Shown here piece after piece: positions 1 to 20,799 of a DNA stretch of 20,799 bases (positions within the stretch are counted from its first letter, which is position 1; each line of letters opens with the position of its first letter). The DNA is from a virus. The translations under genes and the position numbers were made by a program. Location of the stretch: the IMG/VR virus record IMGVR_UViG_3300027896_003915, positions 1 to 20,799 of that record. One strand, written 5' to 3'. The notes beneath the pieces are model-generated. The model was not told the DNA's origin, ran no database searches, and saw only the letters and a program-made list of their open reading frames with translations.

Positions 1-3000
1 CCCATTAGTGAAATCTGAGATTTGTGCATAGTCCCCATTGTTTTCGGAAACTGTTATGGATAAATACTCTCTTATATCTATCGCTCCTGCCGGAAGTGAA
101 ATATCTGTCGGAGGAACAGCTACTAGTATTGAACTTATAGTTTTCCAGTATTCATTTGTTACATAGGATCCATCTTGTAGCATAACTATTTCTTCTGATG
201 TACTTCCGGAATATGTTGTTCCTGTAATAGTAACTATTGCTGGATTATGTAGATAATCTATATTTTCCCCAGACAAATCTATCTGCAGTCTTCTTCCGTT
301 AACATTATTACTTGGTTGGGAAAATCCGGCCAAATACCCCGTTAAATAGCCGTCTATTAAATCAAAACCATCATCTATACTTATTTCGTATCCGTCAAAT
401 ATTATCTCCGTTATTTTAACATCATCTAGCGACGTTGGTGGTCTAGAATTTGTGCGTATATAGCCATCATTTCCGCCGTATACGAACTCTTTCTCTATAA
501 TTCTGGAAAATTTAAGTCCGAGCGTTTCAAGAAATACACTGTCGTACTTAGAAACACCATTGTTTATAGATATAATATATTCATAATTTGAACCATTCGC
601 TATCGAATAGTCTGGCGCAATAGAACTTATCCCATCAAGTTCGTTTTCACTACCAGAAACCCCTTTAGTTTTTATTATAAATCTCTGTATATCTACGGGT
701 GTTGCAGTTGTTACCTGCGTCTGATTAACACTGAAATGTATATTGTCTATTGAATTTAAAAATCCGCTCCATCCTAATAAAGATGAGGTTACCAAAATAG
801 TTGTTTCTCCCACACCAATCACTGTATAAGGATTGCCATTATTTGGTATGCCGGTTCCGTCTTGAGTTGCGTCTAATATATAAAGAGAATCTCTGAACTT
901 TATACCTCCATCAAGAAAATAACTCCCGTTTGATGTAAAAATATTGCTTCCGGCCGTTGTTATTCCGTCAAAGCCACCAATAATAGGCTTCGGAGCAGAC
1001 GGGATCAAAATTTCTTCCGCAACCTCTCCATATAATGCCCCAGAAGTTATATCTGGTTTTCCCCCAAATTTGAATAAGTTCGGTACCTCGAAACCATCTA
1101 CAAATAGATGCATTTCATCTTTTTCCTCAAAAGAATTAAATTTCCAAGACGTTGCGACCTGATGCAATTGCTCAGATGTCCAATCATTAATGTTGGTTGA
1201 TAATATGTAGGTGTTGATGGATTCTTCACAATTATTGCCGAAAACTCTAAAATTTAAATAACCAGTGCCATCTTTATACAATGACATTCTATTAGAATCG
1301 GATGATTTAGCCATATCAAAAATATAATGGTCATCTCCAGAAATAAAAGATAAACTATTAACAGAAGGTACATCTTGAGTATTAAATCCGTGAACCAACG
1401 ACGTAAATGTAATTACATCAGTAACACTTGTTACTATATTCGTAATCAATCCGCCAGTTGAGGCTGTTGCTATTATTGTTCCTGAAGTTATAGTGCTGAA
1501 ATTTATAGTTACGTCATTGACAGAATTATTAATCACAGAAAGTGGAGTTAATACATATCCTAAATCATCGATAACCTGTATTAGCGGAAATAATCCGATA
1601 TTATGAACTAAGTGAACAGAAGTTTGGTTAGTAAAAGAAGCTGTTACGCGATTACTTGGAGAATCTATAGATAATATGGTTCCCGATGTTGGCGACGCAA
1701 ATGTTACTGTAAAATCGTTTATAGAATTATCCACTATAGATAGGGGGATAAAAACTTCATTTGAACTGTTTAAAACTTGAACAACAGGATAAAATCCAAA
1801 ATTATGAACAACATTAACAGATAATTGGTTATTAAATGTAGTAACTATATCTGGAGCTGTAGCAACAATGGTTCCAGACGTTGGAATGATGAATGACACG
1901 ACTGCATCAGCTTTGTTTGTGTTCTTTATTGAATAAGGAATTATCTCAGAACCATTATTATCAAAAGCTTGTATTACGGGATAAACATAAAAATCATGCG
2001 AAAAAGGAACGGATAATTGATTTGTAAATACAACTGTTTGATAAAGAATATACCCATCGGATATCGCTGGATAAGTTATATTAAAAAATCGGCCAGAAGA
2101 TTTTATTGTCCCAGAAAAATCATGAGTTTCTTGTATATTTTGTTTCCATTGTACCTTCCATATCTTCTTAATATTATCAAACCAAATATAAAAACCAGAT
2201 GACACCATATCTGAAGGCTGGCTCAAGAAAACTGCGTCATCCGAATTAAATTGCAACGTAAAGGGCATTGTTTCTGGGTGTTTTCCAGAAAAGCCTATAA
2301 ATACATTGCTTGTGTTAGAATAACCATCCATAGTCAAATTGAATGTTAAAGAAGAATCATTTTCAAGGCCGCTCCACGAAGGACGTATCCATGTCTCTAT
2401 CGTTCCTTCATCAACTTTTACGTGTGATATTGCAGGAACTTCAACGTTTTGTCCGTTTGATATACTTAGGCCTTGCCCGAATTTTCCAAAACCAAATATT
2501 TTTGGTTCAGAATAGACTATAGGCTCTAGGTTTAAGTTACTTTCTCCTAAAACCCAACCAACAGTATTTTCCTTTATTTCTGGTTTAACTTCCGTAAATG
2601 ACTCGACCAATGTTTCTATAGATGGTATTGTAGGTCCTGTTATAAATGACTGTAGCGTTCCACCAACAATAGACCTAAACGTTTCTCTGCTTAAAGACGA
2701 AGAAAGAGTGCTTAATTGTGGCACCTGTGTTAATGATCCAAAATTTGATACTAGTTGTTCTCTTAGAGCACCATATTTATACGAAACATAATACGGAGTT
2801 CCTGGAACAATTGAATTACTAATACTCCAATTGATACTATTATTTCCATATTCATAGGATATTAATATTTCATCCGAAAGATACAAATAATCTACAAATA
2901 AATCTCCGAACGCATAATCTACCAGAACAGCATCTCCGTTAATAAGAGTGTTATAGGCATCTAACTCGATTATATTTCCAGAAATAATATCCTTGTTTAT

Positions 3001-5625
3001 ATTGTAATAATTAGTGAGTTCCGATGAAGAAACAGCGCTAGGACCATAAAGGTCTAATAACTTATAAATCCCCTTTACAGATACTATGGTATTGTCTAAT
3101 TTTAATGTCTTAGATAAATCGGAGGTGGAATAAAGATACCATCCAACATTACTATACGCCGATAGAAAATTAGGAGATACCAAAATCTGATGTTGATTAA
3201 TATATTGAATTATTGTATATGGTATAGGATCATCGTCCACTTTTAATATGTTTCTGACATCACTAGTTGAAAAATTAGCAGAATTAGAAACAAAAATATT
3301 AGAATTTGCGCTTGCTATGCCATCGGGTCCATTTTGATAAAGACCAACAATCAAAGGCGTTAGAACATCATTGTTTATAAATCTTTGCCCAACTTCTTCT
3401 AAGGTTTCTATATTTATACCAGCATCAGAAAAATCAGAATATGAATAATTTTCTACGTTTGGCAGTATTTGACTTACGCTTCTATAAATATTATTAACAC
3501 TAATTAGATGAGAATTTCTAGTAGATATATTTTTGTATTTATAGCTAATATTACCAATGTCTATGCTTTGAGATGGGGAAACGGCAACATAAACAATCCC
3601 ATTCACGTAGTCTATTGTATAATCTCCAATGCTTTGCAATTTATTAAGATTAAATAGTAGATTGCTTATCGGAAGCATGTCTTCATAAAAATATTCATCA
3701 GAAAATATTGTAGTATCGGAGAAATAAACTGATGTATCAAAATTTGCACCAATAAAACTCCCCTGCTTATCAGAAATGCCTTTGTTGGCAAGATTTATCA
3801 CAAATATTGTCTGAGAATATGCGTTGGTTGTATTATTAGCAACGAATAAAGTTTCGTTTGACACTAAAGTAAACGATGCTTTTTCTCTATTAATATTATT
3901 TTGTTTTGGGGCAGATCGTCCAGAAAATGTAATAGATGAATCATTAAATGTGGTAATATTATATATTTCTCCAGTAGTTTCATTAAATACCTGGAAAACA
4001 TCTGTAATTGGGTAATGTTGCGCCTGTACTACAAAATCAGACAATAGCCTATTGCCAACTCTTTCGTTGAGGGATTCTATATGGGATAACGATTCAAAGT
4101 CAACGCCATCAGCAAAAACATCTTCATATTGAAAAGATATTTTAGCAGAAATACCACTAATATTTCTTAAAGAGTTTATTGCTAATTCGTCTGTTGTACT
4201 ATCATATACATAATCTAAATTATTAACAAATACTTTGCGATATATATAAATTAAATCTGGCGGGGCGCTGCCGGTTCCATTGCCATAAGAATCGGCCCCG
4301 AATACGTCAACTTCGCCATTTTGATAGTTTACACTATAATTTCCTGGCGCAGATGGTAATCTCGTAATACTAAAAGGTATTTCTGTAATAAAAGCGGGAT
4401 GAGGAGAAACAAATGCCTGTATTGATTCTGTAGACTGCGTTGCTAAGAATTGTATGCCGCCATATTTAAAAATTTGATCAAGATTATTTACAATAGGAGC
4501 GAAATTTGTTGAAAATCTATTTGTAATGGGAGGAGCTATTTCTCTTGTAACGGATACTATTGTTGATAATTGAACACTTGATTCGTCGATATTTCTTCCC
4601 AAATTTTTATATACATATGATATAATAAATTGATCGCCGGGCTGAGGAGCCGGAAATCCAAAATCAATGCAATCGGATGAAAGAAGAATTTCATTACTGG
4701 TAAAATTAACATTTATACCAGCGAGAAGACTGTCGTATCTATTATTTAACAGTGTATAACCGAATTTTGTTATATTATATTCATAATATATTTCATCTCT
4801 TAGAAGAGCAACAGATATAACCTGCATAACATTTATATTGGACACACTTATGTCTAAACCAGAAAAATGGTTTCCTAAAGAAATATTATCCGTCACTATT
4901 TCGTTAATAACGTCTATAGATTGTAAACTTATTGGGCCAGGAGGCAGAGAAGAAATTACTGGATTAATATAAATTCCAGATCTAGTTGAAAAAGATTGTA
5001 CCCTGTTAGCATCAAATTCAATTTCCCCTATGTTGGTAAATCCTGTAGTTGTTAGCGCGACTCTGGATATTTCAAAGGCCCCCTGGTTGGCTAATTTATC
5101 TATTGGCCCGTTTCCTCTAGTAAGTTGCTCATCTATTACAGAAATTGATAGATAGTTTCCTGCCTTTGTAACTCCGATAGAATCAGAAATTCCCTGCAAT
5201 TGATAAGACAAGCCCGTTAATATATCTTTTATCATTGAAGGAGAATCGGTTTTATAAACTTCTTCCGGAAGATTATTTAACATATCATCTCTAATTGTAT
5301 TTGAATTATCTCCCGGACTAACTATAAATATTGAATTCCTATGCCCGTCTTCTAATATTACTTCTCCGCCAATAGACCGGAACAAAACTGTTGGTGTGCT
5401 AAAAAAAGTAAGAGAGTAATTAACATTTTCAAAAATTGGCGTAAATGATAAGATTATTATATCATTCTCAATATTTATAGATAGTATTTTTGGATTAGGA
5501 ACGCTTTCTATAGAAGATGTTAAAGAAACATTGCTAATTCCCACAGAAGTATCCACATCCTCATTAAACAGTACGCTTATGCTGAATGCAGTAATATTTG
5601 TTATTCTTACAATAGAAAATGCCAT
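1..5625 (-). CDS. Very large modular baseplate wedge / tail fibre protein with LamG-like domain (3' end outside window)
   Basis: From the ATG at 5625 the frame is open for 1875 codons to the left edge. The start has GAGGT 6 bases upstream and lies 4 bases after the J-like stop. Residues about 5-85 resemble a bacterial Ig-like (Big_5/SbsA type) domain (ISVLFNEDVD, then NYSLTFFSTP). About 112-165 is helical (DDMLNNLPEEVYKTDSPSM), loosely like P2 tail protein I, which normally follows J. Many small beta modules follow. A LamG/concanavalin-like jelly roll is recognisable in two halves: about 1040-1100 (GQGLSISNGQNVEVP, GTIETWIRPSW) and about 1430-1530 (YIFDMAKSSDSNRMSLY, HLFVDGFEVP). Between them lie three tandem repeats (1200-1394). 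LamG folds often bind sugars, so host-surface recognition is a reasonable inference. The C-terminus, possibly a fibre tip, is missing. Confidence 0.75.
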   Translation of the reverse strand, partial: MAFSIVRITNITAFSISVLFNEDVDTSVGISNVSLTSSIESVPNPKILSINIENDIIILSFTPIFENVNYSLTFFSTPTVLFRSIGGEVILEDGHRNSIFIVSPGDNSNTIRDDMLNNLPEEVYKTDSPSMIKDILTGLSYQLQGISDSIGVTKAGNYLSISVIDEQLTRGNGPIDKLANQGAFEISRVALTTTGFTNIGEIEFDANRVQSFSTRSGIYINPVISSLPPGPISLQSIDVINEIVTDNISLGNHFSGLDISVSNINVMQVISVALLRDEIYYEYNITKFGYTLLNNRYDSLLAGINVNFTSNEILLSSDCIDFGFPAPQPGDQFIISYVYKNLGRNIDESSVQLSTIVSVTREIAPPITNRFSTNFAPIVNNLDQIFKYGGIQFLATQSTESIQAFVSPHPAFITEIPFSITRLPSAPGNYSVNYQNGEVDVFGADSYGNGTGSAPPDLIYIYRKVFVNNLDYVYDSTTDELAINSLRNISGISAKISFQYEDVFADGVDFESLSHIESLNERVGNRLLSDFVVQAQHYPITDVFQVFNETTGEIYNITTFNDSSITFSGRSAPKQNNINREKASFTLVSNETLFVANNTTNAYSQTIFVINLANKGISDKQGSFIGANFDTSVYFSDTTIFSDEYFYEDMLPISNLLFNLNKLQSIGDYTIDYVNGIVYVAVSPSQSIDIGNISYKYKNISTRNSHLISVNNIYRSVSQILPNVENYSYSDFSDAGINIETLEEVGQRFINNDVLTPLIVGLYQNGPDGIASANSNIFVSNSANFSTSDVRNILKVDDDPIPYTIIQYINQHQILVSPNFLSAYSNVGWYLYSTSDLSKTLKLDNTIVSVKGIYKLLDLYGPSAVSSSELTNYYNINKDIISGNIIELDAYNTLINGDAVLVDYAFGDLFVDYLYLSDEILISYEYGNNSINWSISNSIVPGTPYYVSYKYGALREQLVSNFGSLTQVPQLSTLSSSLSRETFRSIVGGTLQSFITGPTIPSIETLVESFTEVKPEIKENTVGWVLGESNLNLEPIVYSEPKIFGFGKFGQGLSISNGQNVEVPAISHVKVDEGTIETWIRPSWSGLENDSSLTFNLTMDGYSNTSNVFIGFSGKHPETMPFTLQFNSDDAVFLSQPSDMVSSGFYIWFDNIKKIWKVQWKQNIQETHDFSGTIKSSGRFFNITYPAISDGYILYQTVVFTNQLSVPFSHDFYVYPVIQAFDNNGSEIIPYSIKNTNKADAVVSFIIPTSGTIVATAPDIVTTFNNQLSVNVVHNFGFYPVVQVLNSSNEVFIPLSIVDNSINDFTVTFASPTSGTILSIDSPSNRVTASFTNQTSVHLVHNIGLFPLIQVIDDLGYVLTPLSVINNSVNDVTINFSTITSGTIIATASTGGLITNIVTSVTDVITFTSLVHGFNTQDVPSVNSLSFISGDDHYIFDMAKSSDSNRMSLYKDGTGYLNFRVFGNNCEESINTYILSTNINDWTSEQLHQVATSWKFNSFEEKDEMHLFVDGFEVPNLFKFGGKPDITSGALYGEVAEEILIPSAPKPIIGGFDGITTAGSNIFTSNGSYFLDGGIKFRDSLYILDATQDGTGIPNNGNPYTVIGVGETTILVTSSLLGWSGFLNSIDNIHFSVNQTQVTTATPVDIQRFIIKTKGVSGSENELDGISSIAPDYSIANGSNYEYIISINNGVSKYDSVFLETLGLKFSRIIEKEFVYGGNDGYIRTNSRPPTSLDDVKITEIIFDGYEISIDDGFDLIDGYLTGYLAGFSQPSNNVNGRRLQIDLSGENIDYLHNPAIVTITGTTYSGSTSEEIVMLQDGSYVTNEYWKTISSILVAVPPTDISLPAGAIDIREYLSITVSENNGDYAQISDFTNG
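760..975 (-). repeat. SNIF beta module, copy 2, in the fibre protein
   Basis: Residues about 1551-1622 read DGITTAGSNIFTSNGSYF, then a SLYILDAT strand, PYTVIGVG and TTILVTSSLLGW. It matches copy 1 (3127-3330) in the DGI, SNIF, aromatic, PYT(I/V)I and ILV elements. The copies are almost 800 residues apart, so this is a reused module rather than a tandem array. Confidence 0.6.
1441..2028 (-). repeat. Three tandem repeats of 64-67 residues inside the LamG-like domain
   Basis: Copies span 1837-2028, 1636-1836 and 1441-1635. Each begins F(T/N)NQxSV, continues with (S/V)H(D/N)(F/I) and a YPV(I/V)Q or FPLIQ strand, then IP or TP with a Ser-Ile/Val, an Asn/Asp turn, a hydrophobic strand, and ends TSGTI. 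Protein similarity is clear, while the DNA has diverged, so the duplication is not recent. Modules of this general look (a HNxGxxPVVQV strand and a SGT end) are common in phage tail fibres. Confidence 0.85.
3127..3330 (-). repeat. SNIF beta module, copy 1, in the fibre protein
   Basis: Residues about 766-833 of the fibre protein read DGIASANSNIFVSNSANF, then an Ile-Leu-Lys-Val strand, PYTII, and ILVSPNF. The same order of elements occurs again at 760-975. Confidence 0.6.
3880..4020 (-). other. Beta module in the fibre protein, related to one in the J-like protein
   Basis: This is the partner of the module at 7355-7552, spanning residues about 536-580 of the large left-edge protein. The common elements are the Pro-Ile strand, the Thr-Thr-Gly-Glu turn and the Ser-Gly-x(3)-Pro end. 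Confidence 0.5.
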
Positions 5626-5629
5626 TTTA

Positions 5630-8600
5630 TTACCTCGATTCTTCTTTAATATCAACAATACCAGCGGTCAAGTATTGGTTTGCGGCAGCAGTGATACTGA
5701 TGGTGTTAAATCCACCAGCAATACTAAAGTTTAAAACTCTAACTCTGTCCACGCCCGGCACGGAATATAGAACGTTTACTACATCAGACGAATCTACCGT
5801 AGTTCCGAGACTTGTGGCTGTCAAAAACGAAGAAACTGTATCTATAGCGTTCTGAATAACTGTTTGTGCCTGATCAATGTAGGCTGGCAGAATCACTATT
5901 CGAATAGATACATTAACACTGAGTGCTATGGCGGCTTTGATTAATACGTCAGATGTCACTGGTCTAACATTCTCAACAGCCAAGGTGGCAGTGTCTATTA
6001 ATGAATTATAATTATACGTTATTGTTATACGCTCATTTTCCTTTGGTGCTACATATATATAATTTGTGTCGTATACAGTATTGGAATCAGGTTGATTGAA
6101 AGTTCTAATAGACAAAACACCACCAATAATATTATTTATATTAGTGAAACCAGAGTTCACAGATATGCTATCTATAGTTGTATATTTATTTTTAGAAACC
6201 TGCTCACCATTTTTGGTAAAATAAATAGATTCATTATCATCTGTGTTTATATAATAGAATGTAATCCTAAGAATGTCGCCCGTAACCAATATGTTGTCTG
6301 CGTTCACTGATGTTTGGGGCAATACAAATTCTGTACTAGATAAATAACTGTCCTGCAAGGCTACCCTTGTGTCGTTTGAATTATTTTCCAAAACATAATT
6401 TACAATATCATAAATATAATCTACGGCAGTCACCTGATTTGATTGATCAACAGATACTAGTTCTACGGAATAAATTTTTGCCAATCTAACAGAAGACGGC
6501 AAACTATTTGTCCCAATATCAGAAAGAATGGCATCTTGCACGTCTACAGTAAAACCTCCGGACGTTACTCGAACCAATGTATCTACGACAGAATGCATGG
6601 TTGCACCAAATATAGATAAAACTCCATTAGAAAGTATCGAGCCGACATTAATTCTTAAATTACTGCTTGCTTTTCTATAACCATCAACTATGCTTGTCCC
6701 GCTAAATGCATAAGAAGTAGGCTGGTATCCATCCGGTATATTATTTACAAGCAGATAATTGCCAGACGATGTTATTGGCAAAGACGATATATTTGTTTCA
6801 GGAAGTAAATAAGAAATGCTGGATATATAGTTTACTAACACTATAGTCCCTGGTGTTACTAATTGATCTGGCAAATATATCACATTGTTTGTAAAAGACC
6901 CAACACCATATGAATCAGAAGAAAAGACATCAGTAGAATTAAACCTTATGAATGCTGTGTCTCCCGGTACCGCAAGAGTATCTGTTGGCAAATTTATAAT
7001 ATTTGTACCAGTTAATGTACCAGACATAGAGTCTGTATTAAATAATTCTGCATTATCATTTATATTATCTTTTATCCTATTTGTTCTTCTTATATCAATG
7101 ACATTATTTACAACAGATGATGGGGCCACAGATATTGTTCCATCGTTTTGAACGGCCGATGTATATCCACTGTATTCTAAAACGGATAGTACCTTATCGA
7201 CTGGACTTGAAACTATTATATATAAATTACCATTGATATCGGACAAAACAATATTTTGTTCATTTTGAATGAGATTTCCAAAGCTCCAATCAACAGAATC
7301 TTGTGCCGTTCTTGTTGCATTATTATCTTTCAAATTATCGAAATCAAATATATTATCGAAAGGTTTTATCCAAATATAATCACATTGCAATATGTCGGTG
7401 CCCGAGGGCAGAGAGTTTCCGCTTATAATAATGTTTCCATCTAAATTGGGTTCTCCTGCAACACCATTGGGATTTTGATTAGCTATTACATATCTTTCCC
7501 CAGTAGTAAGATTTGTAACTCTACTAACACTTCTTATAGGAGTATGTTTAAGAATAACAAGGCTTCTATTGCTTGAACTAACAAACACACTTTCGTTTAG
7601 AATAGAATAATCTTGCGTAATTTGTAAAATTTCTTCATCGTCTTTAAATTGCAACGGATCCGCACTGTTAAAAATCCCCTTTGTAATTTGCTCGTTATCT
7701 AACTCAATAGAATCAGAAATCCATCTTAGTCTATCGAAACCAAATGGACTTCCGCCGAAATCCCCGGTGTCCTTTAGTAATTCATAGTTTCCGTGAATAA
7801 CTCCTGCGCTGTCTTCATATTTTGCAACAAAATTTGCACCAGATGAGCTGCCTGATATTGATACAATATCGTTTACCGGTTGATATGGGAGTTGATCAGA
7901 GTCTATTAATAAAGTTCTTCGTTGTGATTCATTGCCAGCAGTACTTATGCCGCGTTGACCTAAAATAAAATCGTTCAAAGGATTTGTTGGATCATATTTT
8001 CCGCTTTTATCATTGTATATATATGTGTCTACTTGTGATACTAAAGTGTTTCCCAATATATATATATCAACTTTTCCTCCCGTTCCAGCAGATGTTATTG
8101 CAAGATTTCCATTACTATCAGTCGTAACCTGCGTCCCGTCGCGTGTCATTAAAGGATTACCTGGGCCCACAAGATATGAGCTTTCCACGCCAGATAGTGA
8201 ATCAACAGTATTGGTATATCCAAGAGAAGTCCCAGTATTACTGCCAGCAAAAACACTCAGTATTCTTGTCCTAAAAGCATTATCACTTTCAGGATCAGTT
8301 CCGCCAGAGAACTGTTGTAAATTAGTTACATTAGAAATACCAGTAATATTTTGTGAAACCAATGAATATGGGCCTATATTTCCAGAAGTTCCGGGCGTAA
8401 GCGCCACAACATTTGCTTCTATTGCATATTTGTCGGTAATATTGGCAAGTTGTAAAGATGTACTTAATCTTGTTGCAGTTGCCTTATATACATTGGAGGA
8501 TGTAGATAACATCGTAACACCAGATATTACTTGATAGGTTATACCATTATTAGCAACAACAATTGATCCGGCAGGAATAGGTACATCGGAAGTCAATATA

Positions 8601-9328: not shown

Positions 9329-10692
9329 TATTTGCTCCTATTTGGTCCACGATTTATATTCTGATTTCTTACCTTTGGTTGCTTTATGTCACTGTCAAGA
9401 CCGGTCATTATCGAGCGCACACTTTTCTCCAGGGCCGTAACCGCATCTGTAAAACTCATACTACCACCAGTGCCACCGGTGCCGTTGGTGGAACGAGCAA
9501 AACCAAGACCAGTTTGTGTATTTAGTCTGACTATAGCATCATCGTTTATAAGACTTATCAGTGTTTCTACAGGAATGATAAACAAAGCCAGCAAAACACA
9601 AAGAACGTCAGTGCCAGATAAGCCGCTAAATGTGCCGAACACCAAGTCTAAATCTCTAAACGATGTTTTAAGATCAGATGTAGCCTTATTTAACTGATCA
9701 TCAACTCCATTTATTGATTTTTGAGTAAGGCCATTATCGCTATCACTTACAACAATGCTTATAAAAGTAGAAGCTAGTGAGGCATCTTTTAGATTTCTGG
9801 ATATATTTGTTATAGAGGTATTTCCATTAGTATTCTGCACCACAACATCGCTAAAATTAAAAAGTGATAGTTGCGCCTGTTTTTCCGCCAAAACCAAATC
9901 TTGTTGTGTCTTTTTTTGGTCTAGTTGTCCAACTTGATCATTATTTACAACTGTAGTGTTTTGATCCGGATTATCATCGGGCGTTACGTTTGCGCTGGTT
10001 TGTTTTGCAACCCTGTCCATTATCTGTTTTGCTTCTGACACCTTTTGACTTATATTATTCATTGTTTTAACTAGATTGTTGGTTATATCTTTTGCTAATT
10101 CAGAAAAGCTTTTGTAAACACTACTAATTTCTGGCTGTTTTGTGGAATTAAATATTCCAAGAGTACTGAGTCTCAATGATATTATTGTTTCTATAAGTGG
10201 GCGCCTATATTGTGTTTTGTCATTAGAACTTATATCTTGTAGGTCTGTGTCAGTCATAAAAGCCCCGCCTACTCTTTTGCCCACGGGATATATTTCAACA
10301 CTAGCATTCGTATACATTGGAAATAATTGTTCTTTTCTGGTCCCGTCTATACCATCCAATATACTTGCTTTATACGAGCCAACCGAATATCCATCTGGAT
10401 AACCATTGCGCAAAAAATTTTTGTTGGCCTGAAAGAGGGTTTCTCGGTTACCAAGTGGGTTTATAATATCCCGGCCAATGTTTTTATTGCTAAACATATT
10501 GTTATTATTTTTTTCTGGAGGGCCAACTCCTGTTGATAAACCAGGTAATCCCAAGGCTCTATAAAAAGCATTTATTCTAGATTCCTGAGGGTCTGAGGAT
10601 CCTCCTCTTCCATTAGATCTTATACTATCTATTTCTTGTAAAATCTTGATAGCAAAATCTGTAAAATCTAAATCTTTATTGTATACCGACAT
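9328..10692 (-). CDS. Unrecognised baseplate-region protein with one hydrophobic segment
   Basis: The protein has 454 residues and I do not recognise its family. The N-terminal 60 residues hold a short helical start and a Gly/Pro/Asn-rich linker. About 190-345 is helical, rich in Gln, Asn, Lys and Ser, and contains likely coiled coil at about 205-232 and 255-280. A strongly hydrophobic stretch, TDVLCVLLALFIIPVETLISLI, lies at 361-382, followed by a Gly/Thr-rich linker and a basic Asn/Arg-rich end. Its ATG overlaps the previous stop as TAATG, behind the strongest ribosome site in the window (AGGAGG, 6 bases upstream), and its own stop overlaps the next start in the same way. The tight coupling to the preceding hydrophobic protein and the following gp25-like gene suggests a shared baseplate role. 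Confidence 0.6.
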   Translation of the reverse strand: MSVYNKDLDFTDFAIKILQEIDSIRSNGRGGSSDPQESRINAFYRALGLPGLSTGVGPPEKNNNNMFSNKNIGRDIINPLGNRETLFQANKNFLRNGYPDGYSVGSYKASILDGIDGTRKEQLFPMYTNASVEIYPVGKRVGGAFMTDTDLQDISSNDKTQYRRPLIETIISLRLSTLGIFNSTKQPEISSVYKSFSELAKDITNNLVKTMNNISQKVSEAKQIMDRVAKQTSANVTPDDNPDQNTTVVNNDQVGQLDQKKTQQDLVLAEKQAQLSLFNFSDVVVQNTNGNTSITNISRNLKDASLASTFISIVVSDSDNGLTQKSINGVDDQLNKATSDLKTSFRDLDLVFGTFSGLSGTDVLCVLLALFIIPVETLISLINDDAIVRLNTQTGLGFARSTNGTGGTGGSMSFTDAVTALEKSVRSIMTGLDSDIKQPKVRNQNINRGPNRSK

Positions 10693-12569
10693 TATTTGCC
10701 TCCTGGCTCTCTGTCGAATGTGCTATCAAAAGCCCCACGAGAGGAAGACAATCTTCTCTTTGGCAGTACCGCGTCGGATATGAACATTACTTCTAGCACA
10801 ACATTTATAGTTGAATCATCTATAAACTCGGTTATATATTGCCCATTGACTTGGGCAGTAATATTTGCTGTACCCGGTAACATAGATGTTAATTCCGCAG
10901 TAATAGTTCCAGAACTACTATTAAATGTTTGATTTAGTATTGTTCCAAAATCATTAAGTATTTTAACATCTATTGAAACACCGGAAGGCAGGTTTTGTGC
11001 AATTAAACTCCCGGTAGCATCTTTTGGGGTAATAGTTATAATTGCTTTGTCTTGCCCGCCAGCTCGCACTAAGTTTTTATCCACTTCTAACAAACTATTC
11101 ACCGGGTTTGCAATTTTTGAAAGCACAGAGTTCATTATTGATTTTAGATTATTGGCCGAATTATTTAAAATATTTAATGCATTAGTTCTTATATCATCAA
11201 TCGGAGGAACAAAAGGCGGAACTATGGCACTTTGTAAATCATTTAGAACGCCACTCATATCTGGCAATATCACGTTGGCTAGCTCGGGATATTTGTCCAT
11301 AGCCGGAGTTTCTAGGTCCGAAAATTGATTATCCAAAGAATCTCTTGCTGCAGCTACGTCAGGATGACACCCGAGTCCAACAATTCCTAATCCAACTAGA
11401 ACATCCCAATTTGGAACTACTTGATAATTTACAACGCCAACCATTGAAAACAAACTTGGATCTATAACTGTCATGGTAGTGTTTTCTATAGTTATTATTT
11501 GCGTAGTTTGTGTTTGCCCTCTTGAACCATTTAACTGAACACTGAAAGTTGAAGTATGTCCTGCGCCGCCAGCATATTGAGCAACTGATATATTGTCACC
11601 CGTTTGCGCGCTTAACTGTTGAGACATATCTTGTAAATATGGCACAATTTGCGGAAGAGTGCTTGTGCCAGGACCAGGTAATGCTCGTATTTCGAAAACA
11701 GAACCCGGCGGCGCGTCAGCATAAACAGAAGGAAGAACTAAAGCCTGCCCAACCGGAGGAGACGAAAATATCGGAGGACAAACGTCATCATTGCAACAAG
11801 TTTCATCTTCTTGACAAGGAGAGGCTGTCACTACGCCAGTAAGATTATTTGGCGGACATTTTGCGCTTTTCTTTTTATGACATGGTTTTCCGCCGGCCAA
11901 TGTTAAAATCGCCATAACTATATCTAAAATCGGTTTCAATACATTTAGTATGCCCATTTGATTGGCTAAATCTAACAAAATAGCCTCTAGCTTTTGCTGA
12001 GCTGCATCCTGTGCGTTTTTATCGCCCCCAGAACTTATTATATTTTTTAGATTTTCTATATTATTTTTTATAAGCTCTAACACCGGAACTATAACAGTCA
12101 TAATAAAAAATATTATTGCCAGAATCATTTTAATTATATTCAGTATCAAAAGAACGCCGGCTAAAGGAGGAAACAAAGAAAATAATGGAGGTAGCCATTT
12201 TCTAAACAATCTGATTATGGCAGCAGGAACAGACCACGGACTTAATAAAGCACATATAACTTCAAGGATGCCGCGTATAACTCCCAATATAGGAAGTATC
12301 ATTGTATAAGCAGATATGAACGGTGCTATAACTGATAACAATCCAGCAATAGCATTCCCCATAGATGTAATTTCTGGAGGATGCCCTATGCCTTGTAGCG
12401 TAGAACCACCAGGCAATTGAAACTTTAGCAGCTCATCAGAAAGCATATCAGAACCATTATTGGGTTGGGCCGATGTGTCATATGGCACATTAAACGATGG
12501 TCCGGCCATAGATTCTATGGCAGCTATTATAGCTAATGTTGTAGTATCAGTTATAAACCATGCACTCAT
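10692..12569 (-). CDS. Polytopic hydrophobic tail-region protein with cysteine cluster and Ig-like C-terminus
   Basis: This 625-residue protein has no family I recognise for the whole. Long hydrophobic segments lie at about 72-110, 127-168 and 205-226, enough for several membrane spans or amphipathic hairpins. A cluster of six cysteines follows at 230, 238, 252, 258, 259 and 264 (motifs CHKKKSAKC and CQEDETCCNDDVC), fit for metal binding or disulfides. Residues about 280-400 are beta-rich and Gln/Thr-rich. About 495-595 resembles a bacterial Ig-like (Big_1/invasin type) domain: KAIITITPKDATGS, then SGTITAELTS and GTANITAQVNG. The gene lies between spike and wedge genes and starts 16 bases after the spike stop, with an AAGGAA site 6 bases upstream. 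Membrane insertion during DNA delivery is an attractive inference, but a structural role with buried hydrophobic segments is equally open. Confidence 0.55.
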   Translation of the reverse strand: MSAWFITDTTTLAIIAAIESMAGPSFNVPYDTSAQPNNGSDMLSDELLKFQLPGGSTLQGIGHPPEITSMGNAIAGLLSVIAPFISAYTMILPILGVIRGILEVICALLSPWSVPAAIIRLFRKWLPPLFSLFPPLAGVLLILNIIKMILAIIFFIMTVIVPVLELIKNNIENLKNIISSGGDKNAQDAAQQKLEAILLDLANQMGILNVLKPILDIVMAILTLAGGKPCHKKKSAKCPPNNLTGVVTASPCQEDETCCNDDVCPPIFSSPPVGQALVLPSVYADAPPGSVFEIRALPGPGTSTLPQIVPYLQDMSQQLSAQTGDNISVAQYAGGAGHTSTFSVQLNGSRGQTQTTQIITIENTTMTVIDPSLFSMVGVVNYQVVPNWDVLVGLGIVGLGCHPDVAAARDSLDNQFSDLETPAMDKYPELANVILPDMSGVLNDLQSAIVPPFVPPIDDIRTNALNILNNSANNLKSIMNSVLSKIANPVNSLLEVDKNLVRAGGQDKAIITITPKDATGSLIAQNLPSGVSIDVKILNDFGTILNQTFNSSSGTITAELTSMLPGTANITAQVNGQYITEFIDDSTINVVLEVMFISDAVLPKRRLSSSRGAFDSTFDREPGGK

Positions 12570-14661: not shown

Positions 14662-14671
14662 TTATATTTCC

Positions 14672-17600
14672 TTATGTTGATATTGCCGCAGGATCTTTAA
14701 ATATTAAAACTATTTCAATAACATACGCTATAAACGCTGGATCACTCCCGATAATAGAAAATATCTCTTCTTTTGGTTGTCGCCTAGAATTATTTACTCC
14801 ATTATCGCTCTGTAAGTTTTTTGCCACAGATATTGGGCTTATAAACTTACTTATTTGGCCGTTTCTTAAAGCTGTATTTGTATACCGAGAACTTAATTTT
14901 GCAAAATGTCCGTTATCATATTTTCCCGCAGGATGTTGTAAAACATCTATAACTGCATTAATTTCATTTTGTATTAGAGAACTTATATCAGCTTTTTCAT
15001 TTGGAGTAGATGAATCACTCAGCTTGGGAATAAAACCTCTGACCTCAATCATTGGATAAGCTGATGCGCCCGTAACATAATTTGCCGCAACAGCAAGAAC
15101 ATTTTTGATCTCGTTTATATTGAAGTTTGCATAATCACCAGACAACATAGCAATTTTAGCAGATTCGGCACCAGAGATATTTACTCCAGGAGAAAAGACT
15201 ATTGATCCCAAATGTCTTCCTAAACTTTGGCCGGCTGTTTGCCTAGACGACACAACAGTATTAACTTGTTTCTGTGCTTTTACCAAACTTTTTCCTATAA
15301 TATCCAACGGACTAGGAATATACTCTCCCAAAGGATGCCCATATTCTAGAGAAAGCGCGGTGGTAAAAGTTCCAGCGTATGAAAAAGAATGAGAAACAGA
15401 CGTAACATAATATAGCATATCCCTAGAGTTCAAATATATTACGTCTCCCAATTGATAGTATTCGTTTCCAGGAATCGTTATAGAACCACGGACTGCCCTT
15501 TTTCTATTTTGTGATAGTAACATCACCGCATATGGAGCACACTGTGTTTCTGCATTCTTAAAATAAGGACGACTAATGCCACCTTCAGCTTTATACCCAT
15601 ATTGTCTCCAAAGATCAAAGTCTGTAGCATATGCCGTTAACATAGGTATGTTTCCCAGATTACCCTTTCCCTCTCCAATAAGGTCAATTTCTCCGCTGAC
15701 ATCCACGCGGCATGTGACGTTATCACAACTCTCTGTAAAACTAGAGTTTATTAATTGGTCGTCATAAATAATAAATCTCTTTGACGAATTTGGTCCAAGA
15801 AAATCATTGTAATCATCTTCTATTAAATCCGAAAACTGATTTAAAATATCTGTAGTTGGTGTATTGCCAACATTAGCTTTTATTTTATTTTGTGCCGTAT
15901 TGTTGTTTAATAACGCCTTTTTATATGAATCTACTAGACGCTGTCCTTTGCTAACTTTTTGTGCCAACTGCGTCATCTTTGCGAGTCTATTTGTGTTCAG
16001 ATTAGGATTGTTCGGAGCATTATTAAGCGCCTGATATTCCTGCTGAACTTGCGCAACATCGGCTGGATTTTTGGGATCAATCGCTTGCCCGCCAATTCTT
16101 GATCTCAAAACGGACCTCTTGGTTATTATGTAGTTAACAATATCATCAATATTTGTAGAACTCGCAGTAGCCGGGGCATTAGGAATAGTTGAGCTTAATA
16201 CTGATCCAGCAACAGTGTTTATAACTTCTATTGCCTCTTCTGGTTTTGTAATTACACTTTGTACGCCATTTAGAAGAGCATAATCTATAGCAATTTCCAG
16301 TCCAATATTATCCAAATCATTAGCAGCATTTTCTAGTCTAGACTGAAATAGGCTGATAATATATGGAGGATATAAAGTTTGACTAGCATTTGAATCAAGC
16401 AGAAACATTTTTAATATGAGGGACAGAGGAGTCCTATTGTATCTGGGGGGACGAAACTGTATGTGGCCCATTGAATCGCAATAGAATTCGAAGTCAATAG
16501 TCTTTGCTGTCAGAGAGCAAATTTCTTGAGGAGTCTTGTATTGACTTTCCCAAAGACTTATGTTCTGGGACATATTGATAACAAATGCCTCTATGTCCAA
16601 ATCTTTATCATATTCTTCTGCAACTACGAATAAATTAGTATCCGTGTTCATTTTGCAATCATACTGTGGGCGCAATTGTAAAAGCGAATTTCTTGTACTG
16701 TTGCGCTTAAACTTTTCGTCCATATTTTGTTTTTCTGATTCTGCTGTTGATCCGCCAAAATCATAAGCCCAATCTGTACCATATATTTTAAGAGTGTTTT
16801 GAGATTGATTTGCGGTAGATTTGGTGGCAGAAGACAATGTATTAATCTGTATAGTTAATGCATCAATTCTACTTTTTAGCAATTCACCAAAAACAGACTG
16901 ACTATCGTTTTGAGCCGAAGAGGTGTTTATTGCATTCAGTTGATCCTGTAGATTTGCCAAATCTCCTCTTAACTGCGCTAATTGCCCAGATTTTTGAACT
17001 AAATATTGCTGCGCACCCAATCTTTTGCTAACCATCGCAGGACTTAATATTGAAGTTTTAAACGGCTGAAAATTACCCAGCGCTCTGTTCTGCGACCTAT
17101 TTATATCGAAGAAAGAATGAAAATAACTTTCCGGAGAATTAGATTGTGCATTGCTACTAAACGTTCCTACCGACTTAGAGTTTTCGTAAAAGGATTCATA
17201 ATTATGCGGATAACCAGTAACCAATATACTAACTATGTTGGCTGCGTCCTGACCAACGAAAGGATCATTAACTACATTAACACCAATCTCGCGCTGAGCT
17301 TTTTGTGTTTGGTCTTCTTGGTCGCCCACAGATGTTTTTAGATTTACATTGCGCGTGGCCACCAAAATGCCCTGTTTCCATTTATAAACTAATCCAGGAG
17401 CATGTTTATATTGTGGAGTTGATGTCCCGTCCCCATTAGTTAGATAATCCTGAGCATAATTATCAGTAGTGAATTTTTTACCAAGATAGGATCCGCTATT
17501 ATAATTTATTAAATCATTATTTATCCGGTCTTGGTTTTGAGAGTTAAGTTGCGGCTGTTGTACTATTAAACCAGTTCCAGGGTCAGTAACAATATCAAAA

Positions 17601-19417
17601 GCTGTAAGCGGATCTTCTAATAGCCCCTGTGTTTGGTCAAGACTGGGAGATACATTGACGCGAGATTGAGCCAGCCATTGCATATTACTCGCACCGCTTA
17701 TTTTTGTTGTATATACTCCTGCATCTGCATTATAATCTTCCGTAACCGATGTTACAATGCCACCAAATACATGTGTTCCGCCATTTCTCATCAAACTATC
17801 CGTACGAAGTGAGCGATAGATGTCTACAGGAATCCCTAAATCATCTAAACCAAACACTTTCATTTCTTCTTCAAGCTCAACATCAGATAATTTATTATTA
17901 TTAGTTACAAAGTTTTTTATAAACAAGGAATTATTTATCAGAGAACTCAGCGGGCCAATAATACTATTTTGTTTGAATGTATTGCTTCGCATATAAACAT
18001 TTACAGTGTCCATCGGCTGAACAATGGATTTACCAAGATAATGCAAACGCAAATTTCTTCTGGCATATTTTACATCATTGTCGTTATTATCTGCAGCATA
18101 ATTTTTGTTCAAGTTCTGAACACCCATAACATACTTGCTTAAAGAATCAAATATACTAGTAATCAAAGATATTTCGACAGTTGTTAATTGCTGTTCTGGG
18201 GGAAGTTGTAGAGTATAAGATAAAAAATTAGTTGGTCCAAAGGCTGGTCCATCACCAATGCTTGCTTTTACATTAAATTGCGAGTCAGAACTTAAATCAA
18301 CCTCGAATACTATTTCTGTGTTGTCCGTACCGCTTAGAACCGCATTTCCTGAGTTTTGGCCTAGCCCAAACGCATTAGCTATTCTATTTTTTCTCTTATT
18401 TTTTAGGTCCTGTTCTAGCCTTTGGGCATGTTGTAAATCAAATTGCGGTGAAGTAGCAGGAGCACTTGTTAGAGCATTACCTAATTCTTTCTTAGCAACA
18501 CCTAGCGCTACCTCTATTTCGTCCGTTGTTATCTTCGATAAATTATATGGATCCTGAAAAGTAAAACCTATGCTTCCCACAGAGCCATCTAGCAATAAAG
18601 AAGTATTAAGGTCGCTTACCAAAGTCAATTCGATGACCCCGCTTCCTCTGCCAACCAAAAATACATCCGGCTGAGTGCTATCGACAACCCAAGTCGTATT
18701 AGTTGCGTTCCTCAAATTATCAGATTTAACTTGTAATTCTTGTAGTCCGACTAATAAAGATTCAAAATATTCACTGTCTTTTTTTGCTAGGGCTATTATG
18801 TCGTTGGCTCGGGTGAAAGCAGCTTGTTGACTGGCGACACTATTTCCAGAAGCCAAACCTTGTGTTGCAGATTCTATTGCCGAAGAAGTAAGATTGTTTA
18901 TATTATTTAGATAGTTATTTTGCAAAACATCAATAATAGCACCAATCCTATTATAATCCAGGTCAGATTCTTCGTCTATTAAACGTTGAGCTTTGGTGAG
19001 AGCTTCATACGCTGCTATCTGTTGGCATTTATTTTCGAACAGTATTTTTGTTGCGCGGAGGAATAAAATCTCTCCTCTGTCCAAAAACTTTAGGTCATTA
19101 TCTCCTCTGAGACTTCTGAATGCCCTTTTATGAATGTACGCTGTAATAGATGGTTCTTGGGTTGTGATATTTCTTTTTTTAATATCAGAAACATTATCTA
19201 TCGATGAACCAACAAATGCTGTACCAGGTACTCCTTCGAAGCCACCATCCACATAGACATTCTCCTTCGGCGGCGGAGATGGACGAGTAGAATTAAGCGT
19301 AAAAGCATTAATAAGGCCGTTTTTAGTAGACTGATATTGTTGGTCCAAAAAACCTAGCACTTGGCCAAAACTATTTTGACGGGGAGTGCTGGTATCAGAG
19401 CCAAATATAATAGCCAT
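14672..19417 (-). CDS. Giant baseplate hub / tail protein (gp27/gpD-like core)
   Basis: This 1581-residue protein begins with a largely helical N-terminal third, including Ala/Gln/Leu-rich stretches at about 130-240. Around 445-600 it has a hub-like stretch, with a PMDTVNVYMRS segment and then GGTHVFGGIVTSVTEDY and VYTTKISGASNMQWL, typical of T4 gp27 / P2 gpD / Mu gp44-type ring domains. About 805-870 is a Gln/Leu-rich coiled coil. About 975-995 has DFEFYCDSMGHIQFRPPRY, as in the second hub domain. A second helical segment lies at about 1100-1180. About 1270-1380 has a C-terminal beta region with YYQLGDVIYLNSRDMLYYVTS. Known hubs are about 350-400 residues, so I infer a hub core with large helical insertions. 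The gene lies directly before the spike gene, as expected. No lysozyme or transglycosylase motif was seen. Hub function is moderately sure; the added domains are unknown. Confidence 0.65.
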   Translation of the reverse strand: MAIIFGSDTSTPRQNSFGQVLGFLDQQYQSTKNGLINAFTLNSTRPSPPPKENVYVDGGFEGVPGTAFVGSSIDNVSDIKKRNITTQEPSITAYIHKRAFRSLRGDNDLKFLDRGEILFLRATKILFENKCQQIAAYEALTKAQRLIDEESDLDYNRIGAIIDVLQNNYLNNINNLTSSAIESATQGLASGNSVASQQAAFTRANDIIALAKKDSEYFESLLVGLQELQVKSDNLRNATNTTWVVDSTQPDVFLVGRGSGVIELTLVSDLNTSLLLDGSVGSIGFTFQDPYNLSKITTDEIEVALGVAKKELGNALTSAPATSPQFDLQHAQRLEQDLKNKRKNRIANAFGLGQNSGNAVLSGTDNTEIVFEVDLSSDSQFNVKASIGDGPAFGPTNFLSYTLQLPPEQQLTTVEISLITSIFDSLSKYVMGVQNLNKNYAADNNDNDVKYARRNLRLHYLGKSIVQPMDTVNVYMRSNTFKQNSIIGPLSSLINNSLFIKNFVTNNNKLSDVELEEEMKVFGLDDLGIPVDIYRSLRTDSLMRNGGTHVFGGIVTSVTEDYNADAGVYTTKISGASNMQWLAQSRVNVSPSLDQTQGLLEDPLTAFDIVTDPGTGLIVQQPQLNSQNQDRINNDLINYNSGSYLGKKFTTDNYAQDYLTNGDGTSTPQYKHAPGLVYKWKQGILVATRNVNLKTSVGDQEDQTQKAQREIGVNVVNDPFVGQDAANIVSILVTGYPHNYESFYENSKSVGTFSSNAQSNSPESYFHSFFDINRSQNRALGNFQPFKTSILSPAMVSKRLGAQQYLVQKSGQLAQLRGDLANLQDQLNAINTSSAQNDSQSVFGELLKSRIDALTIQINTLSSATKSTANQSQNTLKIYGTDWAYDFGGSTAESEKQNMDEKFKRNSTRNSLLQLRPQYDCKMNTDTNLFVVAEEYDKDLDIEAFVINMSQNISLWESQYKTPQEICSLTAKTIDFEFYCDSMGHIQFRPPRYNRTPLSLILKMFLLDSNASQTLYPPYIISLFQSRLENAANDLDNIGLEIAIDYALLNGVQSVITKPEEAIEVINTVAGSVLSSTIPNAPATASSTNIDDIVNYIITKRSVLRSRIGGQAIDPKNPADVAQVQQEYQALNNAPNNPNLNTNRLAKMTQLAQKVSKGQRLVDSYKKALLNNNTAQNKIKANVGNTPTTDILNQFSDLIEDDYNDFLGPNSSKRFIIYDDQLINSSFTESCDNVTCRVDVSGEIDLIGEGKGNLGNIPMLTAYATDFDLWRQYGYKAEGGISRPYFKNAETQCAPYAVMLLSQNRKRAVRGSITIPGNEYYQLGDVIYLNSRDMLYYVTSVSHSFSYAGTFTTALSLEYGHPLGEYIPSPLDIIGKSLVKAQKQVNTVVSSRQTAGQSLGRHLGSIVFSPGVNISGAESAKIAMLSGDYANFNINEIKNVLAVAANYVTGASAYPMIEVRGFIPKLSDSSTPNEKADISSLIQNEINAVIDVLQHPAGKYDNGHFAKLSSRYTNTALRNGQISKFISPISVAKNLQSDNGVNNSRRQPKEEIFSIIGSDPAFIAYVIEIVLIFKDPAAIST

Positions 19418-20605
19418 TTAATTTACTTCCTGCGGTTGTATTTTGATAGTTGATAATTCCAGTATAGAAATATCAATAATTGGTTCTTCTATAGAGTTTA
19501 ATATATTCATAAGTTCGGAGAACTTTTCTTTTGTATAGAAATCTTCTGGATTTTTATCACTTTTAGAAGAATTACACGATTTACATAATATACAAGCATT
19601 TTTACGAGTCAAAGCGTTACCCTTTGATAATGGTTTGACATGATCAACGCATAAATCCTTATCTTTGCCGCAATTAAAGCATTTATTATTAAATAGTGTA
19701 AAAGTAAAAGCTTCGTCTGCGGCGGTAAAATATTCGTTTACTTTAAGCACCAAAGATCTTCTTCTTCGATCCTTCTCACGAAGCTTCTCAGGAAATTTCT
19801 TTTGTCTATATGATGCTCCACATATTGTTGAACAATATTTTGCTTTGGCATTCATATAAGTTATTTCGTTTTTACAGTGTAAACAAAATCTTCTATTTTT
19901 TTCTTTTTCCCCTTTTACTTTATCGCTTCTTTTTTTGATATAATAAAGGCTCAAACACAATTCAGAACAGTATTTTGCACGAATATTGCGGCCAACTATT
20001 CTTTTTTCACAATGTAAACAGTATTTTTTAATTTTTGATTTAGGTTTACTTTTCTTATGGGTTATTCTATATTGCTTGTGATACAGAGCAAGACTATCGG
20101 CTTTTTTTATTTTTCTGTCAAACTCTCTGCATTGTTTGGAACAATATATAGCATCCGCTCTTCTTTTTAAAATTTGGCCGCCACAATATAAACAGAAGTT
20201 TTTTGGACGAGATTCTATTTTTTCTTTTCTTTTTGTTTTTAATTTCTCGTTTGTTGCTGCATGTTTACATTTTCTAGAACAATATTTTGCTTTAGTGTTT
20301 CTGCCAAGAATTTCTTTTCCACACAATTTGCAATTTTTAGCAGTTTCTGGCGAATCGCGATTTTTATTTTTCAACATAGTATGCCAGTAATCTTCTCTAC
20401 ATTCGCTGGAACAATATTTGGCGTTTTTAGGCTTTCCAGTTATTTCTTTTTTGCATTGCCTGCAAAACACAGCCGGGCGAGAAGATTTTTGTTTTTGCCA
20501 TTTATGTTTATCTCTGCATACGCCCGAGCAATACTTAGCAGAACTAATTTTGGAAGAAATATCTATTCCGCATTGTAAGCATATTCTTATTTCATTATTT
20601 TCCAT
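19418..20605 (-). CDS. HNH endonuclease with six N-terminal zinc knuckles (homing-type)
   Basis: The protein has 395 residues and is very lysine-rich. Six knuckles of the form C-x2-C-x13-C-x3-C occur at Cys 9/12/26/30, 48/51/65/69, 92/95/109/113, 138/141/155/159, 196/199/213/217 and 241/244/258/262. Each has a core like AKYCS before the last cysteine, and basic linkers of variable length separate them. A canonical HNH domain follows at about 305-357: Cys309/Cys312, the catalytic-type pair Asp321-His322, Asn336, Cys341/Cys344, then Asn345 and Lys348. The HNH family cuts DNA with one metal ion. I infer that the knuckle array binds DNA and gives specificity. The start at 20605 follows a rather weak GAGAGT ribosome site overlapping the upstream stop. 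The gene ends directly against the hub gene start. Among large structural genes it is most likely a free-standing homing endonuclease rather than a virion part. Confidence 0.88.
   Translation of the reverse strand: MENNEIRICLQCGIDISSKISSAKYCSGVCRDKHKWQKQKSSRPAVFCRQCKKEITGKPKNAKYCSSECREDYWHTMLKNKNRDSPETAKNCKLCGKEILGRNTKAKYCSRKCKHAATNEKLKTKRKEKIESRPKNFCLYCGGQILKRRADAIYCSKQCREFDRKIKKADSLALYHKQYRITHKKSKPKSKIKKYCLHCEKRIVGRNIRAKYCSELCLSLYYIKKRSDKVKGEKEKNRRFCLHCKNEITYMNAKAKYCSTICGASYRQKKFPEKLREKDRRRRSLVLKVNEYFTAADEAFTFTLFNNKCFNCGKDKDLCVDHVKPLSKGNALTRKNACILCKSCNSSKSDKNPEDFYTKEKFSELMNILNSIEEPIIDISILELSTIKIQPQEVN
19426..19431 (-). promoter_or_regulatory. Shine-Dalgarno site of the hub gene, inside the HNH gene 3' end
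   Basis: AGGAAG on the minus strand lies 8 bases before the hub ATG (19417) and within the last codons of the HNH gene (about Gln-Glu-Val-Asn-stop). The HNH stop TAA (19418-19420) touches the hub ATG with no gap. The hub gene therefore depends on sequence inside the HNH reading frame for its ribosome site, and the two are probably translationally coupled. Confidence 0.7.
19820..20581 (-). repeat. Six-copy zinc-knuckle coding repeat
   Basis: This stretch encodes the six CxxC...AKYCSxxC knuckles of the HNH protein, spaced 39 to 58 codons apart. Similarity is visible in the DNA as well: the 17 bases gaacaatattttgcttt (plus strand) occur identically at 19830-19846 and 20277-20293. Close variants occur near 19966, 20139, 20410 and 20527. 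The pattern suggests internal duplication. Confidence 0.8.
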
Positions 20606-20616
20606 TTTTTTACTCT

Positions 20617-20799
20617 CTATTTTGTTGTTGCTCCCAAGTTAGGAAGTCCCAAATCTGCAGAAACATCATTTCCGCCGAAGCTTAGAGGGGAACTACCCGG
20701 ATGGTATTGGCTTGGGGTATTTTGTGTTGGCGAAAGACCAAATAATCCCCTAATTGAATTGCCTGCGCTAGATACTAAGGAGTTTATTTGGTCTTTCGC
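20617..20799 (-). CDS. C-terminal end of an unidentified protein (5' part outside window)
   Basis: Reading from the right edge in the frame that begins at base 20799 gives 60 codons and a TAG stop at 20617-20619. The fragment starts AKDQINSLVSSAGNSIRG and is then rich in Gly, Pro, Ser and Asn (a LFGLSPTQ stretch, then HPGSSPLSFGG and a final LGLPNLGATTK). This looks like a flexible, low-complexity tail of a structural protein; I do not recognise a family. It sits just upstream of the HNH gene, and its stop is 11 bases before that start, so it belongs to the same transcription unit. The last 16 bases of the window form one arm of a perfect inverted repeat with 20730-20745, so the first few residues could be affected by an assembly or amplification artefact. 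Confidence 0.6.
   Translation of the reverse strand, partial: AKDQINSLVSSAGNSIRGLFGLSPTQNTPSQYHPGSSPLSFGGNDVSADLGLPNLGATTK
20730..20799. repeat. Perfect 16-bp inverted repeat at the right edge
   Basis: Bases 20730-20745 (GCGAAAGACCAAATAA) are the exact reverse complement of 20784-20799 (TTATTTGGTCTTTCGC), separated by 38 bases. The right arm ends exactly at the end of the window, so the repeat may extend further. Both arms lie in the C-terminal coding fragment. A transcript could form a hairpin, but the position at the edge also suits a fold-back artefact at a contig end. Confidence 0.85.

Follow-up and report, generated by a model that had tools for sequence, protein, structure and literature searches.

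The stretch of DNA analyzed here (the window; 20,799 nucleotides) is a 20.8-kb virus fragment with baseplate genes, including matches to Baseplate_J and tail families, and with a sheath-initiator-like protein whose score falls under the Pfam cut-off. Near one end, on the minus strand, lies a free-standing HNH endonuclease gene (19418 to 20605), recognized from the list of open reading frames (ORFs), Pfam, the phrog_1271 profile and a repeated cysteine pattern. Its ATG is at 20605, its stop codon ends at 19418, and the intact frame encodes a protein of 395 amino acids in which six zinc units are followed by an HNH domain. The gene occupies a slot between two tail genes on the same strand. The upstream gene ends 11 bp before the endonuclease gene begins and is represented by the C-terminus of a tail-tube-initiator-like protein (20617 to 20799, cut by the window end), an assignment based on a homolog in the related contig L006 that matches PF23980. 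On the downstream side, the endonuclease stop codon directly abuts the ATG of a gene (14672 to 19417) for a 1581-aa tail protein, defined from the ORF list and a comparison of six contigs.

No confident Pfam or PHROG family was found for the 1581-aa protein, a tblastn search with it against 50,697 phage records gave no match, and homologs of its gene were found in just five other viral contigs (L005, L006, L117, L118 and L119). Thus, the virus lineage looks uncharted. Elsewhere in the window, the tail protein encoded at positions 10692 to 12569 has an Invasin_D3/Big_1-like domain close to the C-terminus, and positions 1 to 5658 encode a protein of at least 1886 aa, cut by the window end, whose sole match is phrog_21918, a family of unknown function.

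All six zinc units fit C-x2-C-x13-C-x3-C exactly and lie N-terminal to the single HNH domain, at residues 9-30 (unit 1; minus strand, as for all units, 20516 to 20581), 48-69 (unit 2; 20399 to 20464), 92-113 (unit 3; 20267 to 20332), 138-159 (unit 4; 20129 to 20194), 196-217 (unit 5; 19955 to 20020) and 241-262 (unit 6; 19820 to 19885). The initial annotation had described six regular units before one HNH domain, and this description is borne out both by the exact matches and by 20,000 shuffles of the ORF residues, of which 19,804 contained no unit, 194 contained one, two contained two and none contained more. The linkers between units are indeed basic, as had been proposed (35% K+R vs 11% D+E), but at 17, 22, 24, 36 and 23 residues they are shorter than the 30 to 50 residues first given for them; the unit-to-unit period of 39-58 residues comes nearer to that range. 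Likewise, the conserved AKYCSxxC core that had been noted holds in large part, with AKYCS present in five of the six units and AIYCS in unit 4.

A lack of cysteine conservation in relatives would have counted against the initial interpretation; all four are invariant in 11 of 11 aligned units from four proteins (those of the window, of contigs L005 and L002, and of an IMG/VR copy of phage GAL1). The cysteines and the AxYCS core are kept from unit to unit while the linkers diverge, and the conserved units are probably functional. A recent tandem DNA duplication of the units can be rejected because the window units share just 8-13 of their 22 residues, and 45-65% of their bases, with one another, and even the codons of invariant residues differ synonymously from unit to unit.

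The nuclease domain itself (residues 309-351; 19553 to 19681, minus strand) was assigned using Pfam, an alignment to a solved structure and Foldseek. It matches PF01844 (E 1.1e-6) and HNH_5 (E 2.4e-6), both above their curated cut-offs, and its model groups with HNH nucleases such as the Cas9 HNH, McrA and 4h9d HNH domains. Among solved structures, the closest in sequence is that of the HNH nickase Gmet_0936 (PDB 4h9d), although the match from sequence alone is weak (E 0.0053). In the alignment, C309, C312, D321, H322, N336, C341, C344 and N345 of the window protein pair with C38, C41, D53, H54, N68, C73, C76 and N77 of Gmet_0936, of which the four cysteines are zinc ligands and the other four are active-site residues according to the published account (PMC3765158). 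On the basis of this pairing, the window nuclease is assigned to the HNN variant, with zinc cysteines 309, 312, 341 and 344 and active-site residues Asp321-His322, Asn336 and Asn345, and as judged by the alignment its active site is complete. The two proteins share the HNN-type HNH fold and its zinc-site residues, whereas Gmet_0936 is a 112-aa chain that has no array and nicks weakly and apparently nonspecifically (PMC3765158). An identity as IscB was rejected, given that NCBIfam NF040563 scores 33.7 bits against a cut-off of 175 and covers the HNH region only. A known anti-phage defense protein was likewise rejected, with no PADLOC family matching at E values up to 1.

The units had been called zinc knuckles. 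A retroviral-type CCHC zinc knuckle has the spacing C-x2-C-x4-H-x4-C, and this class is rejected for all six units, which have C-x2-C-x13-C-x3-C instead. Modeling of the full-length protein gave a mean pLDDT of 68.6 and a pTM of 0.29, with poor results at unit 6 and in the stretch joining the array to the HNH domain. In units 1-5, modeled helices begin inside the second cysteine pair (residues 28-41, 67-81, 111-130, 157-183 and 215-236), so the "linkers" would largely be basic helices. Unit 3 modeled alone and zinc-free (pLDDT 84.9) has a CxxC turn, two short strands and a helix from the second cysteine pair. Its Foldseek search gave no match under E 0.5, and the nearest folds identified with VIA are all weak (YacG, Z 4.2; FCS, 2.7; TRASH, 2.1; also L24e-type ribosomal chains and MYND). 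When the unit profile was compared with the PDB, the matches were mostly partial and confined to CxxC; L24e, one of the two best matches examined as alignments, was matched in both halves (whole chain E 0.0025, with each half weak alone). The weak YacG, L24e, FCS, MYND and TRASH fold matches together with the two-half L24e match suggest, with moderate confidence, that each unit is a treble-clef or FCS-like finger with a basic helix. Therefore, the original term is wrong in the CCHC sense, and fingers of the treble-clef, FCS or L24e type appear closer.

Comparing one unit with protein families, a check that had been proposed at the outset, produced short-finger matches to Ecl1 (PF12855) and no match of family length. 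The Ecl1 profile matched eight of 11 single units (best E 2.4e-6; unit 3 alone scored 17.0, under the cut-off), and its summed score for the whole protein exceeds the cut-off (58.9 vs 28.3, in four stretches). Membership in that family is rejected because the best stretch spans just positions 6-33 of 170, and the match is read as that of a common short finger.

The overall architecture is already catalogued. The window ORF matches the PHROGs family phrog_1271, "HNH endonuclease" (E 1.7e-31, 110.9 bits, in three stretches, in a collection without a curated cut-off), with residues 131-355 falling on positions 112-322 of 361, across units and HNH domain. Gordonia phage GAL1 gp80, a phrog_1271 protein, likewise has several Cys4 units with YCSxxC-type ends and then a C-terminal HNH domain, and its three units are 39-41 residues apart. 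Searching 50,697 phage records by tblastn with the window protein returned two records, both GAL1; searching with the GAL1 protein matched 211 of them, 12 over at least 80% of the query. Units were counted in 12 of the 60 records listed from this second search, in addition to GAL1 itself. By pattern, GAL1, Patio, NatB6, GTE5 and IDyn have three units each, as does the aligned portion of GTE8. Four units each are found by a looser pattern in Arthrobacter phage 1191A and in contig L002, whose protein matched two records by tblastn, both Haloarcula tailed virus 3. Fewer are present in MoxS-R1 (two), GiKK (two, with an altered core) and Kenmech (one), while only one of the three pattern matches in Yvonnetastic passes a hidden Markov model (HMM) of the unit, and none passes in Riptide or Sycamore. 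Known phages of this architecture therefore carry one to four units, and the named multi-unit phages of phrog_1271 carry two to four, although among GAL1, NatB6, Patio, GTE5 and GTE8 only GAL1 was scanned against the family profile. The window protein differs from these in having six units and in belonging to a different virus lineage. Some family members also adjoin terminase genes, whereas the window gene is in a tail slot. In bacterial genomes the phrog_1271 profile matched six of six and 10 of 14 controls, which says little about arrays because it was mostly the HNH part alone that matched. In the literature searched, no publication on multi-unit HNH arrays was recognized, which is no proof of absence.

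A wider sample came from a scan driven by the HNH domain, which found at least 197 relatives in at least 600 stretches. The best 80 loci were retained, less three that repeat L005, L001 and L002; since the scan was HNH-driven and limited to these best 80, array-rich proteins with a distant HNH domain may be missed. Among the reconstructed frames, at least four (L015, L027, L036 and L047) are broken and two (L066 and L094) are short. When the unit HMM was applied with a threshold of more than 5 bits and the cysteine pattern required, 17 of the 102 proteins compared had at least one unit and 11 had at least two; the window protein alone had six and the next had three (four by the looser pattern), with an HMM that favors the window because six of its 11 training units are the window's own. 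Six is the highest unit count among these 102 proteins, which draw on the best 80 of at least 197 relatives scanned. Thus, an arrangement first presented as possibly novel is known in kind, as phrog_1271, while six units occur nowhere else in the sample. Other combinations were noted during this survey. The locus L020:2521-4119 encodes 533 aa in which FCS-like units are combined with an HNH domain at the end and, by eye, an apparent HNH-like stretch inside the protein, making it a composite of module types; of its four looser-pattern matches, the third looks like part of the internal HNH rather than a unit. At L032:3001-4094, one HNH-encoding stretch appears to be followed by a second in another frame (by eye).

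All six contigs that carry the 1581-aa tail gene, including the window, keep the upstream gene or its end at the slot, and three of them have the slot occupied. In the window it holds the six-unit endonuclease gene, in L005 a gene for 246 aa with one unit and an HNH domain 64% identical to that of the window, and in L006 a gene for 287 aa with an unrelated endonuclease-VII-like HNH domain (phrog_1035). The slot is empty in the other three, leaving 20 bp in L117, 11 bp in L118 and 0 bp in L119. Across these six contigs, such a presence/absence pattern, with the site empty or filled by another endonuclease in relatives, is that of a free-standing homing endonuclease. Ribosome-binding-site-like sequences precede the downstream ATG in the window, L005 and L006 (by eye). 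The endonuclease genes of the window and L005 are 31% G+C vs 37-38% in the adjacent gene, and the L006 slot gene shows no clear difference from its neighbor (35% vs 37%). At the junction on the far side of the 1581-aa gene, an endonuclease-VII-like gene is found in L005 only; in the other five contigs the genes there overlap or are no more than 11 bp apart, with 10 bp in the window (14662 to 14671). With both sites filled, L005 carries two different endonuclease genes (L005:5592-6317 and L005:130-870), one on each side of a single tail gene, which resembles the "HEG islands" described in PMC10448857.

The history of the slot can be approached through the HNH domain, for which identity to the window is 64% in L005 (65% over aligned codons), 55% in L001, 48% in L002 and 39% in GAL1. 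A score limit left 76 of the 102 proteins for a tree built on few columns, in which the window and L005 domains are sisters (support 98/88), with L001 next (98/88). Divergence between the window and L005 at codon positions 1, 2 and 3 is 0.37, 0.18 and 0.56 in the HNH domain, 0.33, 0.23 and 0.58 in the flanking gene, and 0.29, 0.21 and 0.58 in a 691-aa gene. Because the domains are sisters and their divergence is close to that of the flanking genes, the simplest reading and best fit would be a single old insertion before the window and L005 viruses split, followed by remodeling of the N-terminus to one versus six units. The unit-number comparison suggested initially thus gave one in L005 and six in the window, with no other six. 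The single L005 unit is most like window unit 1 (12 of 22 residues vs at most 9 for the others), and MAFFT aligned it to unit 4. In both L005 and L001, a single unit is accompanied by repeats rich in K, Y and E that are taken by eye as helical. L013 has a related HNH domain, a different N-terminal cysteine element and K/Y/E-rich repeats, in a baseplate-like region of another virus; by a reading of its ORFs, the genes on either side of L013:2740-3348 are gp25-like and baseplate J-like. Given how these N-termini differ, this type of HNH domain appears to keep company with several N-terminal parts.

Overall, the gene is quite likely a free-standing HNH homing-type endonuclease of a tailed phage, located between two tail genes, with Cys4 modules that would bind DNA and place the HNH domain. 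The homing assignment made initially agrees with the slot census, in which three relatives are empty and two hold other endonucleases; at the sequence level, the gene is stand-alone and intergenic, is absent from the slot in three of six contigs and has an intact active site. In each module a basic helix would follow a small zinc finger of treble-clef-like form, and the array as a whole would bind the DNA of an uninvaded relative, at its empty junction or close by. The bound array would then position the C-terminal HNH domain to nick or cut at the junction, and repair from the carrier genome would copy the gene into the empty allele by recombination. Zinc binding, DNA binding by the array, nicking or cutting of the empty allele and copying are all proposed, by analogy with T4 MobA/MobE (PMC2988022). 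The number of units would have changed after the single insertion in the window/L005 ancestor, and this remodeling may have changed the target.

Several known systems share parts of this design. The free-standing T4 mob HNH endonucleases are likewise encoded by stand-alone intergenic genes, but in them a distinct region, presumably DNA-binding, follows the HNH domain at the C-terminus, whereas the window protein has its array at the N-terminus and its HNH domain at the C-terminus. Zinc-ribbon HNH nicking endonucleases, which also combine a small HNH nicking domain with one or more extra zinc-binding elements, reportedly have few zinc sites per protein. These enzymes (Xu and Gupta 2013) are cited in PMC4422536, PMC8845596 and PMC3765158, and strand-specific nickases typically recognize 3-7 bp (PMC8845596). 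I-TevI, which has a zinc finger in its linker, reads DNA over an extended stretch (PMC2988022), much as the window protein putatively does, but it is an intron-encoded GIY-YIG nuclease whose one zinc finger helps set cleavage distance.

Other readings of the same evidence must be weighed. If the gene is a homing HNH endonuclease, its array might still serve as a nonspecific nucleic-acid tether or a protein-contact surface, with the HNH domain and adjacent helices setting the site. This possibility deserves serious thought even though the odds are somewhat against it: the array seems dispensable in kin, as L005 and L001 keep the HNH domain with one unit and helical repeats and L013 keeps it with another cysteine element, and the nearest folds (YacG, MYND, L24e and FCS) include protein- and RNA-contact domains. 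The cysteines and AxYCS core are nevertheless retained amid diverging linkers, which points to specific constraint acting on the individual modules. It is rather unlikely that related genes entered one hot spot independently in the window and L005 lineages, so that the one-versus-six difference would involve no remodeling in place. The slot does behave as a hot spot, since L006 holds an unrelated endonuclease there, and L001 has a 55%-identical HNH domain in another gene context, but one old insertion fits both the sister placement and an HNH divergence similar to that seen in the flanking genes.

Two further readings have little in their favor. In some phages a packaging-associated HNH protein is encoded beside the terminase genes, and by annotation the Kenmech gp13 and MoxS-R1 genes adjoin the terminase large subunit gene and that of 1191A adjoins the small subunit gene; with tail-gene neighbors in the window fragment and the gene absent from the slot in three of six contigs, such a role in place of a selfish gene is very improbable here. 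Homing genes often decay, and this insertion is old, yet an inactive endonuclease kept by chance is just as improbable when the 395-aa frame is intact, the active-site set is complete, all cysteines are kept and second-position divergence is far below third (0.18 vs 0.56).

Within the preferred reading of a homing-type endonuclease, a bolder proposal is that the array makes a natural zinc-finger nickase, in which every treble-clef/helix module recognizes a short sub-site of its own. The six-unit enzyme would then read an interrupted target, as the initial annotation had suggested it could, and one far longer than that of the one-unit enzyme at the same locus, and homing endonucleases would change target by gaining or losing modules before a constant HNH domain. 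This proposal is speculative and probably incorrect as a whole, but it bears on how homing endonucleases acquire new targets. Two related viruses that retain one HNH domain at the same locus, joined to a single zinc module in one case and to six in the other, offer a natural comparison of array length. The question of specificity is directly testable because one-unit, six-unit and empty-slot relatives exist, and the empty sites are the natural substrate. The kind of protein is known and its array is unusually long. If the modules do not read DNA one by one, the gene is a phage homing gene of the ordinary sort, apart from the unusual length of its array; if they do, they would provide compact, naturally combined binding parts for nickases.
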